32,810 nt of DNA from a virus: positions 1 to 32,810 of the IMG/VR virus record IMGVR_UViG_3300017770_000074; one strand, written 5' to 3'. Shown here piece after piece: positions 29,564 to 32,786 of the stretch (its first letter is position 1; the number at the start of each line of letters is the position of its first letter). Both the position numbers and the translations under genes were made by a program. The notes below the pieces were generated by a model. That model had not been told where the DNA came from, searched no databases, and worked only from the letters and a program-made list of their open reading frames with translations.

Positions 29564-29734
29564 TCACTCCACTTCTTTGATAATAATACAATCATTCTCT
29601 ACCTCGATGTTTACTTCTGTTCCCTCATACCACCCCTTTTCATCACATACCCATTCTGGTATCGTTACATAGTGTTCTCCACTTACTGGATCGATCTCTA
29701 TAGTCGTAAAATTTTCTGCGGAATTTTTTTGCAT
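29564..29734 (-). CDS. Small AbrB/MazE-like protein, 56 residues
   Basis: An ATG at 29734-29732 opens MQKNSAENFTTIEIDPVSGE and continues HYVTIPEWVCDEKGWYEGTE and VNIEVENDCIIIKEVE before TGA at 29566-29564. The pattern 'YVTIP..V....GW.EGTEVNIEVEND.IIIK' is that of SpoVT/AbrB or MazE swapped-hairpin domains (xxxIPxxxxxxLGxxEGDxVxIxxxxxxIxIxK). Those domains are usually dimeric and bind DNA or a toxin partner. Here it might be a phage transcription regulator or a structural relative without DNA binding. No toxin gene is adjacent. An AAGG about 12-15 bases before the ATG is a modest ribosome binding site. It lies upstream of the glycosyltransferase-like gene in the same direction. Confidence 0.75.
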   Translation of the reverse strand: MQKNSAENFTTIEIDPVSGEHYVTIPEWVCDEKGWYEGTEVNIEVENDCIIIKEVE

Positions 29735-29765: not shown

Positions 29766-29790
29766 TGAAAAATTTTTTTTTTGTGGGGGG

Positions 29791-29870
29791 GGTCTTGGAG
29801 ATTCTTGGTTAGTCTTGGTGGGTCTTGGTGGGTCTTGGTGGGTCTTGGTGGGTCTTGGTGGGTCTTGGTA
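29791..29870. repeat. Tandem 10-bp repeat, eight in-register units
   Basis: Eight consecutive 10-mers in register: GGTCTTGGAG, ATTCTTGGTT, AGTCTTGGTG, four perfect GGTCTTGGTG and GGTCTTGGTA. The core TCTTGG is invariant. A run of G and then T/A tract precedes it (29773-29790). Its unit length is close to one helical turn, so every core lies on the same face of the DNA. No gene covers it. Confidence 0.95.
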
Positions 29871-30030
29871 AATCCTTAGAGGTTTATATCTAAAGGTCGA
29901 TCTGGGTCGTTTATAGCTTCCAGGGACCCATTGGTTTTATATACGGCACCCCATAATACCCCACTAACTGTCATTCACGAACGAATGGGGGTGTCACTTA
30001 GGGGGATGATTAGTCCCCCCTATGTGTTAA
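29871..30030. other. Intergenic stretch with a short inverted repeat
   Basis: Non-coding DNA between the 10-bp array and the 85-residue gene. It holds an inverted repeat CATTC-ACGAAC-GAATG at 29972-29987 and, at its right edge, the G/C hairpin described separately. I see no convincing gene or RNA here. Confidence 0.6.
29999..30022 (-). terminator. G/C hairpin after the 85-residue gene
   Basis: TAGGGGG..CCCCCCTA forms a stem with a loop of about nine bases, starting nine bases after the stop codon on the minus strand. There is no T-run after it, so it may act as a weak terminator or as an mRNA 3' end stabiliser. It belongs to a family of four such hairpins in this region. Confidence 0.55.
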
Positions 30031-30288
30031 TCAGGCAGGGATTTCTGACCCCCACCAATTGTCACCATCGTAAGCAGATTTCCAGGTTTCATAGAAACTA
30101 TCCCAACAATCGTCATCTGCCTCACACATAGTCTCTTCATTAAGAAGAGAATCAATCTGTAACTGATCACATAACCAATCATGCGAAGTATCAAGATCGG
30201 ATTGTGTGTTACTCACAAAATCAAAGAGACCTGTCATAAGGTGGTCCCATGTTGCTTGCATTTCGGGGGAGTTGGGGAAGATTGTCAT
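30031..30288 (-). CDS. Small acidic protein, 85 residues, unrecognised
   Basis: The protein starts MTIFPNSPEMQATWDHLMTG and is rich in Asp, Glu and Trp, ending WKSAYDGDNWWGSEIPA. Residues 50-70 (EETMCEADDDCWDSFYETW) are strongly acidic with two Cys. Strong acidity is common in phage proteins that mimic DNA or bind host basic proteins, but nothing here proves it. The start is fixed by the 114-bp leader cassette, which ends a few codons into the gene and is repeated identically before the 107-residue gene. It has no purine-rich Shine-Dalgarno; the leader before the ATG is CA-rich (CAACCGACACCGAACCG). A G/C hairpin follows the stop. Confidence 0.72.
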   Translation of the reverse strand: MTIFPNSPEMQATWDHLMTGLFDFVSNTQSDLDTSHDWLCDQLQIDSLLNEETMCEADDDCWDSFYETWKSAYDGDNWWGSEIPA

Positions 30289-30393
30289 CGGTTCGGTGTC
30301 GGTTGCGTTGACTCTGTTAGTCTATAGGATCGGAACGGGCAACCGTGACAGAATGCCCGACTTGTTACACTTTGAAATAATGTAACTTAAGGG
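30280..30393 (-). repeat. Leader cassette copy A (114 bp)
   Basis: The sequence is identical over 114 bp to 31194-31307 and similar to 32288-32359. On the minus strand it holds, in order, a GTTACA..TGTAAC inverted repeat, a CGGGCA..TGCCCG inverted repeat with a 12-base loop, a TATAGACT box that could be a -10 element, a GACT..AGTC inverted repeat, a CA-rich leader and the start codon of the 85-residue gene. It is probably a promoter plus 5' leader reused for several genes. Confidence 0.85.
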
Positions 30394-30878: not shown

Positions 30879-31202
30879 TCAGGAAAGATAAGTTCCTACG
30901 ATGACACTGCCATCGTAACAGTTCTTCACCACAATGCCACTGAAATAAGAATCGGAGAAATATCCATCCCACTTATTTCCAAAGAGGGAGTTATGCTCAA
31001 GACGCATAAATTCACCCAAGTCATACCAAACTCCCCGATACTTAAAGAATTCCCTCTCATCGAATTCTTCCTCACTAAGATAATCAAACTCTTTGCGGAG
31101 TTGGTGATATAAACTCCCTGAATTAAGTCCTCCAAATCCTTCTAACCACATTCCAGTGATTAATTCTCTAGGGGTCCAATTGGTCTTGATTGTGATTGTC
31201 AT
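30879..31202 (-). CDS. Unrecognised protein, 107 residues
   Basis: The protein starts MTITIKTNWTPRELITGMWL and continues EGFGGLNSGSLYHQ, then a charged segment (LSEEEFDEREFFKYRGVWYDLGEF) and a beta-rich end (WDGYFSDSYFSGIVVKNCYDG). I recall similar 'RGVWYD' and 'SDSYFSG' patterns in cyanobacterial and phage hypothetical proteins, without a function, so I assign none. The start is fixed by leader cassette copy B, which reads through the ATG exactly as in copy A. The first nine bases of coding sequence are shared with the 85-residue gene because of the cassette. It is followed by a perfect hairpin and then the 135-residue gene. Confidence 0.75.
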   Translation of the reverse strand: MTITIKTNWTPRELITGMWLEGFGGLNSGSLYHQLRKEFDYLSEEEFDEREFFKYRGVWYDLGEFMRLEHNSLFGNKWDGYFSDSYFSGIVVKNCYDGSVIVGTYLS

Positions 31203-31307
31203 CGGTTCGGTGTCGGTTGCGTTGACTCTGTTAGTCTATAGGATCGGAACGGGCAACCGTGACAGAATGCCCGACTTGTTACACTTTGAAATAATGTAAC
31301 TTAAGGG
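31194..31307 (-). repeat. Leader cassette copy B (114 bp)
   Basis: Identical to copy A at 30280-30393, with no mismatch that I can find over 114 bp, including three inverted repeats, the TATAGACT box, the CA-rich leader and the start codon region of the 107-residue gene. Beyond the shared block the upstream side differs: copy A is preceded by a hairpin, copy B by ATGCAATTTTTTC. Confidence 0.85.
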
Positions 31308-31356: not shown

Positions 31357-31489
31357 TGTGCCGGTCGGCAAACTGGATTTTTTGACCCCAATAGGTGCTC
31401 AAGATCGATTAGAATTTAGGAAATCAAACGAGGTGCGGGGTAGCACTGTAGACGACAATACATCGACACTCATCCTGCCATAAAATAAT
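31357..31489. repeat. 133-bp dispersed repeat, copy 1
   Basis: Matches 32655-32786 over the full length with about a dozen differences, in the same orientation. It opens with a GTGCC..AAACTGG element and contains GATCGATTAGAATTTAGGAA, GGTGCGGGGTAGCACTGTAG and CATCGACACTCATCCTGCCA as long identical blocks. A 24-codon open frame lies inside on the minus strand. The strong conservation of blocks without a long gene suggests an RNA, leader or regulatory element. Confidence 0.85.
31399..31473 (-). CDS. Possible 24-residue small ORF in the 133-bp repeat, copy 1
   Basis: The frame MSVDVLSSTVLPRTS..., ATG at 31473-31471, ends at TGA. The matching copy at 32696-32770 keeps the frame and length: its stop is TAA, one synonymous change and two replacements separate them. 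That hints at coding but is also expected in a conserved non-coding element. No good ribosome binding site is visible (GGCAGG overlaps the start too closely). Confidence 0.25.
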   Translation of the reverse strand: MSVDVLSSTVLPRTSFDFLNSNRS

Positions 31490-31516
31490 GTTAAATTTCA
31501 TTTCAATTTTAGGGGT

Positions 31517-31747
31517 GTGCCAATCCACAAAGTGTCCACTCTACCGGCACAGGTCTTAAAATATGCTAGGATGGAGGTAGAATCTATTTTTAAGGTGGAC
31601 AGTTGAGAAAGTGTCCACTCTACCGGCACAGGTCTTAAAATATGCTAGGATAGAGGTAGAGTCTAATGTGGTGTGTGCCAGTTTGTAAGGTGTCCACTTG
31701 ACAATAAAAAATCTACCTGTGACGTGGTAGGATGGAGGTAGAGTCTA
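31517..31747. promoter_or_regulatory. Three palindrome plus promoter-box units in tandem
   Basis: Three units with a period near 79 bp. Each starts with a partial palindrome (31517-31539, 31595-31618, 31675-31697) of the form GTGsmCA..TT...AA..TGTCCAC; the middle one has perfect GTGGACA and TGTCCAC arms. After 27-30 bases each unit has TGnTAGGAT (31564, 31643 and 31725), resembling an extended -10 on the plus strand, then GGAGGTAGA or AGAGGTAGA. Units 1 and 2 differ by two bases over 57; unit 3 diverges in the middle and holds TTGACA. On the minus strand units 1 and 2 also offer TAGACT or TAGATT plus 17 bases and TATTTT, so direction is uncertain. Probably a repressor-controlled promoter array. 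Confidence 0.6.
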
Positions 31748-31768
31748 AAATTTAGTAAAAGTAATTAA

Positions 31769-31783
31769 AAAAAAAAAAAAGAA
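31769..31783. other. A-tract next to AT-rich spacer
   Basis: A run of about 14-15 A bases on the plus strand followed by about 60 bases of nearly pure A/T. It lies between the palindrome array and the iteron-like array. Such tracts bend or unwind DNA. Confidence 0.6.
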
Positions 31784-31838
31784 TTAAATTAAATTGATAA
31801 TATAAAGAATTAAATAGTGCTATTTTATGTTATATCTC

Positions 31839-31965
31839 GTGATGTTAATCTCGTGTTATGTGATGTTAATCTCGACTAGATTTTAATTAAAATATGTGAT
31901 GTTAATCTCGTGCTATGTGATGTCAATCTCGTGATGTTAATCTCGACTAGATTTTAATTAAAATA
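31839..31965. repeat. Iteron-like array (five 15-bp units and two 21-bp units)
   Basis: The 15-mer GTGATGTTAATCTCG occurs at 31839, 31860, 31896 and 31931, and once with a T to C change at 31917. A second, palindromic AT-rich 21-mer with core GATTTTAATTAAAAT follows units 2 and 5 (31874-31894 and 31945-31965). Unit spacing is 21, 36, 21 and 14 bases. Repeats of this size next to an A/T tract resemble plasmid or phage origin iterons or a protein-binding array. Confidence 0.85.
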
Positions 31966-31990: not shown

Positions 31991-32290
31991 TTACTTTTTA
32001 GAGTAAAATACCCCCTCTAAATCATCTTCGAAGAAAATGTAACCATTAGATAACAGTGTTATCTGTCTTGCAGGTTTACGAATAACCCACTCAATTGCTC
32101 CCCTTATCTTAGAATTTAAGGGATCATACTTTACCCCTTTCTCGCACTTAATGCAGGATCCCTGCGCGAAATGGTAAGCAAACGCAGTTTGCTTAGACCT
32201 TCTTTCAGATTTAGGATCGCATGATTCTAAATCAGCGCGGTCAACTGCTTCCATGTATAGGGCGATAGTGCGGTGGAAATTGCTGATCAT
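31991..32290 (-). CDS. Unrecognised protein, 99 residues
   Basis: The protein starts MISNFHRTIALYMEAVDRAD, with DLESCDPKSERRSKQTAFAY after it, a Cys-x-x-Cys pair (SCIKCEKG) near residues 45-52 that could hold a metal or disulfide, and a basic then beta-rich end (RKPARQITLLSNGYIFFEDDLEG). A single CxxC is too little for a zinc-finger call. The start sits at the end of leader copy C, as for the other two cassette-led genes. A G/C hairpin follows the stop codon and then the iteron-like array. Function unknown. Confidence 0.72.
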   Translation of the reverse strand: MISNFHRTIALYMEAVDRADLESCDPKSERRSKQTAFAYHFAQGSCIKCEKGVKYDPLNSKIRGAIEWVIRKPARQITLLSNGYIFFEDDLEGVFYSKK

Positions 32291-32359
32291 CGGTCGGTGT
32301 CGGTTGCGTTGACTCTGTTAGTCTACAGGATCGGAACGGGCAACCGTGGAAGATTGCCC
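32288..32359 (-). repeat. Leader cassette copy C (diverged)
   Basis: Matches copies A and B from the start codon through CGGTGTCGGTTGCG and GACTCTGTTAGTC to GGATCGGAACGGGCAACCGTG on the plus strand, with one base deleted (CGGTCGGTG for CGGTTCGGTG) and TATAGG changed to TACAGG. Its right arm then differs (TTGCCCA for TGCCCG) but still pairs with GGGCAA. The outer part of the cassette, with GTTACA..TGTAAC, is absent. Confidence 0.8.
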
Positions 32360-32377
32360 ATTTTGTGTGCCAGTTAA

Positions 32378-32590
32378 TTAATCGTACATAGCAGCAAGCA
32401 ATTCCTCCCACGTATGGTAGGGAGTAGGGTTTGCAGGTTCAGGATCTGCTTTTGGAGCATCTGACAACAAACATGCCCAAGCATAGACGTGGAACGTGTA
32501 TGGGGTAAAAGTATTGTCGTCTTCACATAGTTCCAGACCTTGACGGGGAATCAGACTGCCGTGCTGTGATGCAAAATTGAAGAGCGTCAT
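32378..32590 (-). CDS. Unrecognised small protein, 70 residues
   Basis: The protein starts MTLFNFASQHGSLIPRQGLE and ends PTPYHTWEELLAAMYD. The middle (FHVYAWACLLSDAPKADPEP) has a short hydrophobic run followed by a Pro-rich linker; the last eleven residues look helical. It has no cassette leader: the bases before the ATG are CAAACCAACCCACCAAC, again CA-rich and without a Shine-Dalgarno. No hairpin of the cluster type follows; its stop is 19 bases from the outer end of leader copy C. I cannot assign a function. It is the last clear gene before the right edge. Confidence 0.62.
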   Translation of the reverse strand: MTLFNFASQHGSLIPRQGLELCEDDNTFTPYTFHVYAWACLLSDAPKADPEPANPTPYHTWEELLAAMYD

Positions 32591-32654: not shown

Positions 32655-32786
32655 TGTGCCACTTGGCAAACTGGTTTTTTCGATCCCATAGGTGCTTAAG
32701 ATCGATTAGAATTTAGGAAATCAGATGAGGTGCGGGGTAGCACTGTAGACGAAAATACATCGACACTCATCCTGCCATGAAATAAT
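32655..32786. repeat. 133-bp dispersed repeat, copy 2
   Basis: Second copy of the element at 31357-31489, same orientation. It starts TGTGCCACTTGGCAAACTGG, a cleaner palindromic opening than copy 1. Differences concentrate in the first 40 bases and at a few third-codon-like places. It lies between the 70-residue gene and the window edge, where another ACTTACCAAACTG half-element begins at 32798. Confidence 0.85.
32696..32770 (-). CDS. Possible 24-residue small ORF in the 133-bp repeat, copy 2
   Basis: The same frame as at 31399-31473, ATG at 32770-32768, length preserved and stop changed from TGA to TAA. Protein is MSVDVFSSTVLPRTS... Evidence for translation is weak; listed because the frame survives in both copies. 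Confidence 0.25.
   Translation of the reverse strand: MSVDVFSSTVLPRTSSDFLNSNRS

Follow-up and report, generated by a model that had tools for sequence, protein, structure and literature searches.

The promoters nearest in mechanism to those described here are the middle promoters of phage T4, served by MotA and AsiA, and the Ogr/Delta promoters of phages P2 and P4. A T4 middle promoter contains a sigma70 -10 element and a phage-specific upstream element that replaces the -35; this MotA box is non-palindromic and is centred at -30. The P2 Ogr/P4 Delta promoters similarly contain a sigma70 -10 with a poor -35 or none, and carry a phage-specific dyad centred near -55. The nearest genomic concept is the PeSL cassette of T4-like hyperplastic regions, a stem-loop terminator joined to an early promoter, which lies between small variable genes and is associated with gene shuffling. 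In contrast to T4, the cyanomyoviruses lack motA and asiA, as well as alt and modA, and published accounts leave the control of their middle transcription unexplained (PMC2984593; PMC5780444). For P-SSM4 and Syn9 a 'putative middle promoter' upstream of homologues of T4 middle genes was reported, and reported to be absent from P-SSM2 and S-PM2 (Weigele 2007, as cited in PMC2984593).

The window, by which we mean the whole stretch of DNA that was analysed, is a 32.8-kb linear IMG/VR record of a T4-like cyanophage. Its baseplate genes lie on the minus strand and are followed by a small-gene region upstream of gp25. A non-coding stretch of about 790 bp is flanked by two minus-strand genes, one of which starts at 31202 while the other ends at 31991; the neighbouring minus-strand ORFs match PHROGs of unknown function or have no match. 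The plus strand of the non-coding stretch contains three tandem units, each formed from a 24-bp dyad followed by an 18-nt box, TGnTAGGATnGAGGTAGA, that includes the hexamer TAGGAT. The features of this region, and of a second region further downstream, are as follows.

31357-31380, plus strand: operator TGTGCCGGTCGGCAAACTGGATTT, degenerate in sequence, belonging to a fourth promoter that lies upstream of the three, with the -10 TAGAAT at 31410-31415, 29 nt on
31411-31490, plus strand: copy 1 of the pseudoknotted small-RNA element 'D2', with transcription predicted from the -10 at 31410
31516-31539, plus strand: operator 1, a 24-bp dyad (TGTGCCA...TGTCCAC), TGTGCCAATCCACAAAGTGTCCAC, with 1 mismatch to the family pattern KKKGMCANTTNNNNAANTGKCMMM; 0 in 20 shuffles at ≤1 mismatch
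31564-31581, plus strand: promoter box 1, TGCTAGGATGGAGGTAGA, with the -10 TAGGAT at 31567-31572, 27 nt past operator 1, and a predicted +1 at about 31579
31595-31618, plus strand: operator 2, with perfect arms GTGGACA/TGTCCAC, GTGGACAGTTGAGAAAGTGTCCAC, 0 mismatches
31643-31660, plus strand: promoter box 2, TGCTAGGATAGAGGTAGA, with the -10 TAGGAT at 31646-31651 and a predicted +1 at about 31658
31674-31697, plus strand: operator 3, TGTGCCAGTTTGTAAGGTGTCCAC, with 1 mismatch to the family pattern
31725-31742, plus strand: promoter box 3, TGGTAGGATGGAGGTAGA, with the -10 TAGGAT at 31728-31733, 30 nt past operator 3, and a predicted +1 at about 31740
31750-31965, plus strand: repeat tract of 78% AT that follows the promoter array; it contains ATCTCG six times (iteron GTGATGTTAATCTCG), as well as ATTTTAATTAAAAT palindromes, at 31834-31945
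32655-32785, plus strand: region of D2 copy 2, with a degenerate operator at 32655-32678 (4 mismatches), the -10 TAGAAT at 32707-32712, 28 nt on, and D2 itself at 32711-32785

The initial annotation had claimed three tandem units at 31517-31747, and they are present there on the plus strand. It had also given box distances of 28, 28 and 31; the near-constant spacing stands, but the values are off by one count, the distance from the end of the palindrome to TAGGAT being 27, 27 and 30 nt in units 1, 2 and 3. Successive units are spaced 79 and 82 bp apart, box to box. Units 1 and 2, described as nearly identical over 57 bp, are indeed near-identical over their first 52-57 or so, and share 82% identity over 79 bp. 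An exact 22-mer of unit 1 has no match in IMG/VR. The three operators are not chance occurrences, as the rest of the 32.8-kb window contains nothing with ≤1 mismatch, and neither do 20 block-shuffled versions of the window.

The dyads belong to a wider class with the pattern TGTGmCAsTT-N4-AAsTGkCACA and its variants. Its geometry was established with 341 non-redundant dyads from phage loci, among the IMG/VR matches listed. A TATAAT-like hexamer lies 28, 29 or 30 nt downstream of the dyad in 24, 112 and 47 cases, respectively, against a background of about 3 at any other position. When 213 oriented sites are aligned on the -10, the dyad, centred at about -53.5, is followed by the -10 and then by a purine and a T at +1/+2. 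The same alignment contains no -35 element and no conserved block where a MotA box would lie: from the dyad as far as the extended -10, conservation stays at or below 0.21 bit. An ATG ORF begins on the same strand within 160 nt downstream at 173 of the 213 sites, compared with 69 in a mirrored control, and the distance to its start peaks sharply 20-29 nt past the -10. The fixed-distance -10 together with this strand bias means that, in all likelihood, the sites are genuine promoters with short leaders.

The dyad and the -35 tend to exclude one another. Among boxes of the window type, a TTGACA-like -35 accompanies 1 of 23 boxes with a dyad and 10 of 19 boxes without one (TTGACA-N19; p = 8e-4, an optimistic value since the sites are related by descent). 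In several spacers of S-CRM01 and DSL-LC03 the interval between operator and -10 is filled by a complete terminator hairpin while the 28-30 nt spacing still holds, so that no -35 is possible there. The dyad thus takes the place of the -35, and the description of the loci as operator-promoter units draws strong support from the fixed-distance -10, the alignment of oriented sites and this exclusion. The possibility that the box serves the minus-strand genes as their promoter was dropped, since its direction, as given by both the dyad and the -35 (TTGAC-N19), is that of the plus strand. At 27 nt, units 1 and 2 of the window lie at the edge of the spacing optimum. The three units of the window are probably members, arranged in tandem, of a class of promoters peculiar to T4-like cyanophages.

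In its layout the class resembles the P2 Ogr/P4 Delta promoters, with an upstream dyad (at -53.5 here and about -55 there), a sigma70 -10 and little or no -35. It differs in the sequence and length of the dyad and in the phage family concerned. Similarly, it shares with the MotA/AsiA promoters a T4-like phage, a sigma70 -10 and a phage-specific element in place of the -35, but the element is a palindrome further upstream.

The PeSL concept would make the dyad an RNA stem-loop, and each unit a stem-loop terminator with an early promoter that serves gene shuffling. A promoter adjoins a dyad between small variable genes in ORFan-rich regions (the S-PM2 ORFanage, the ORFan/tRNA region of S-CRM01 and 43-53 kb of Syn9), and the dyad-plus-promoter is sometimes merged with a terminator. 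The S-CRM01 record (locus L379, 118000-162000) annotates one dyad operator as a Rho-independent terminator, and true terminators elsewhere in S-CRM01 and DSL-LC03 sit within the 29-nt spacer between operator and -10. The dyad itself, however, is conserved in sequence and not in pairing, and holds a strict 28-30 nt to the -10. Its halves anti-covary at both informative paired positions (odds ratios 0.13 and 0.23), a perfect 10-bp stem occurs in only 10 of 254 sites, and no T-run follows the dyad in the 213 aligned sites. The paired positions avoid pairing, as would be expected of a protein site that avoids a hairpin. Judged by this pattern of variation the dyad is a DNA operator, that is a site for a protein, and an RNA stem-loop or terminator was rejected on the anti-covariation. 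A PeSL-type stem-loop as the function of the dyad is therefore largely refuted, and the PeSL reading of the units as a whole is highly improbable.

Scanning isolate genomes for the dyad at ≤2 mismatches, with a reversed-pattern control, places the class in all 13 cyanomyovirus isolates scanned, most of which have 4-18 sites per genome. On the forward strand S-CRM01 has 18, P-SSM2 13, S-PM2 10 and S-SRM01 10. T4 and the podovirus P-SSP7 have zero sites in the same scan, and the reversed pattern gives zero in every genome scanned. A scan that also requires the -10 finds about 15 sites in P-SSM4 and about 10 in Syn9, the latter including sites at 43-53 kb. In almost every P-SSM4 site the TATAAT-like hexamer is 29-30 nt away from the dyad; the predicted promoters of this phage include those at about 48,074, 128,854 and 151,264, with starts expected about 7 nt past the -10. 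The genes downstream are mostly small ORFs without an assigned function, plus one helicase; in S-CRM01 the sites directly precede ORFan and tRNA genes, and several S-PM2 sites fall among the small ORFs that surround the 'ORFanage' (PMC4503421). P-SSM4 and Syn9 are the same two phages in which the putative middle promoter was reported, whereas P-SSM2 and S-PM2, reported to lack that motif, carry dyad sites. The dyad class may or may not be the motif of Weigele 2007, and an earlier description of the dyad is possible.

The cellular hosts give a different picture. Only 6 of 201 picocyanobacterial host-family genomes contain any site at ≤1 mismatch, which is essentially chance, and a host regulon was rejected on this basis. 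The suggestion that the units could bind a host repressor is for the same reason unlikely to be correct. Capture of a host transcription factor by the phage is documented for cyanophages, in the use of PhoB by S-PM2 and P-SSM2 promoters (PMC10976474), and other cyanobacteria, as well as a Pyrinomonadaceae genome, contain occasional TGTGACA dyads of a similar kind. Set against this are the scarcity of sites in host genomes compared with the numbers per phage genome, and a dyad that is neither a Pho box (CTTA-N7-CTTA) nor an NtcA site (GTA-N8-TAC) as these are defined in PMC3037559. That the binder is a borrowed host factor is accordingly quite improbable.

The Pyrinomonadaceae case is a single acidobacterial genome (SSF56, G015) with eight TGTGACAGTT-N4-AACTGTCACA dyads, most of which lie between genes, upstream of, for example, outer-membrane and glycosyltransferase genes. 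They presumably mark an unrelated regulon with a look-alike site. The ends of IS elements or transposons were also considered for the TGTGACA dyads of cellular genomes and rejected, because the adjoining genes are not transposases.

The initial annotation had compared the layout with immunity operators and regarded it as unusual for a lytic T4-like phage. The first comparison finds no support, given that the operator-promoter is scattered through lytic T4-like cyanophages; the second statement is true for coliphage T4 only, the layout being typical of T4-like cyanophages. What is unusual in the window is that three such promoters stand in tandem and are aimed away from the neighbouring genes, into the 78% AT repeat tract.

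This arrangement recurs. A total of 47 IMG/VR contigs contain the box pattern of the window, often several times over in an array; about 9 of these contigs hold single, chance-like copies within long ORFs. In the remaining contigs the orientation of the box opposes that of the surrounding genes at 33 of 38 loci, as judged by ORF length. The module of array, AT-rich repeat tract and 118-bp repeat ('D2') is present in its entirety at about 95% identity in three further loci (L016, L026 and L044) with 3, 3 and 4 units, respectively, and with some differing flanks; a looser form with 2 units is seen in L039. The marine Prochlorococcus phage P-HM2 has one dyad-plus-box on the minus strand (operator at 38254, box TGCTAGAATGAAGGTAGA), which runs in the direction of the genes. 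A longer array occupies positions 12-400 of IMGVR_UViG_3300008113_001711 (L313); it comprises seven or more operator-promoter units with a spacing of about 58-62 bp, and TTGACA and TGTAG occur at the usual distance. In L008, L011, L014 and L042 the place of the dyad is taken, at other boxes of the arrays, by direct repeats similar to GTTACAAAACATTACA, which resemble the cyanobacterial HLR1/RpaB site.

The presence of the class in T4-like cyanophages and not in their hosts points to a viral regulator in the role of MotA. A phage-encoded dimeric protein, made during infection, would bind the 24-bp dyad and recruit host sigma70 RNA polymerase to the -10 with no need of a -35, a role comparable to that of MotA or P2 Ogr. 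Activation is favoured over repression because the dyad lies just upstream of the absent -35 and because boxes tend to carry either a dyad or a -35, seldom both. A weak -35 is common in picocyanobacterial promoters, however, so that a missing -35 is no proof of activation. A second counterpoint is that the genes of the regulon are small ORFans. Such genes are often taken to be expressed early, and early promoters that fire as soon as infection begins cannot depend on an activator that the phage has yet to make. A search of ten conserved P-SSM4 proteins without assigned function revealed no DNA-binding domain, and no Ogr-type zinc-finger protein among them.

The same promoters might instead be shut off later in infection by a phage repressor, for example through cooperative binding at tandem sites. 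The early-type ORFans of the regulon would suit this, as would the tandem arrays (in the window, and the ~58-bp array of L313) and the TTGACA also present at some sites (L313, L099). The position of the dyad argues otherwise: it ends about 6 nt upstream of the would-be -35, with no overlap with the -10 or +1 seen among the 341 dyads or the 213 aligned sites. A repressible promoter would also be expected to keep its -35, yet the dyad boxes are without the -35 that dyad-less boxes have. Repression is thus rather unlikely. The reading that we tentatively prefer is a single phage-encoded activator, a functional replacement for MotA, whose dyad at -53 would substitute for the -35 and whose regulon across T4-like cyanophages may comprise ORFan genes, tRNA genes and a pseudoknotted small RNA.

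The small RNA is the D2 element. The two copies in the window are 90% identical, and about 96 non-redundant relatives occur in cyanophage contigs among the loci retrieved; Rfam gives no match even at E ≤ 1. In a 22-sequence alignment the D2 hairpin has double changes at all five pairs. An RGGG hairpin loop pairs with a 3' CCCT(GC) to form the pseudoknot, with 98.5% of cells paired compared with 54-65% when slid, and some members end in a T-run. The operator (≤3 mismatches) is found at the canonical distance upstream of the D2 -10 in 13 of 36 cases, compared with 0.45% at random positions, and is better preserved in copy 2 and in relatives than at 31357. On these comparative grounds D2 is a new pseudoknotted small-RNA family, predicted to be driven often by the same operator-promoters.

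Two other repeats were noted in the window. A 114-nt repeat (30280-30393, 31194-31307 and 32281-32394) immediately precedes three small minus-strand genes that are unrelated to one another; two copies are 100% identical and the third 72%, the repeat has CGGTTGC/GCAACCG arms, and it looks like a shared promoter/leader cassette. A seven-copy 10-bp tandem repeat, GGTGGGTCTT, at 29787-29886 is non-coding and lies near the gene at 29564-29734.

The array and the neighbouring genes are on opposite strands, and no convincing ORF is present on the plus strand downstream of the array, which would yield a non-coding transcript of about 200-400 nt across the AT-rich repeat tract. Rightward transcription from the predicted starts would run up to the terminator region of the opposite gene. 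The array and the tract could together form a replication origin of the T4 oriF/oriG kind, at which replication is primed by transcription through an R-loop; the primer RNA would come from the operator-promoters. Such an origin would fit an array that faces a repeat-rich, non-coding tract with six iterons and no gene on that strand, and the arrangement is kept in relatives despite differing repeats: the position of the tract is conserved in L016, L026 and L044 with variable sequence, and L039 has different repeats. Nevertheless, in DSL-LC03, where a D2 RNA and an AT-rich tract are found at the corresponding locus, the cumulative GC skew has no turn there, and many other boxes are without such a tract. 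An origin at this site is therefore doubtful.

A precise operator-promoter with predicted starts in cultured phages offers a direct, testable handle on how T4-like cyanophages, which have neither MotA nor AsiA, time their transcription. If the proposal is correct, the ORFan regions of these viruses, which abound in oceans and lakes, would gain their first shared regulatory logic, and that logic would be linked to D2, a small-RNA family not described before.
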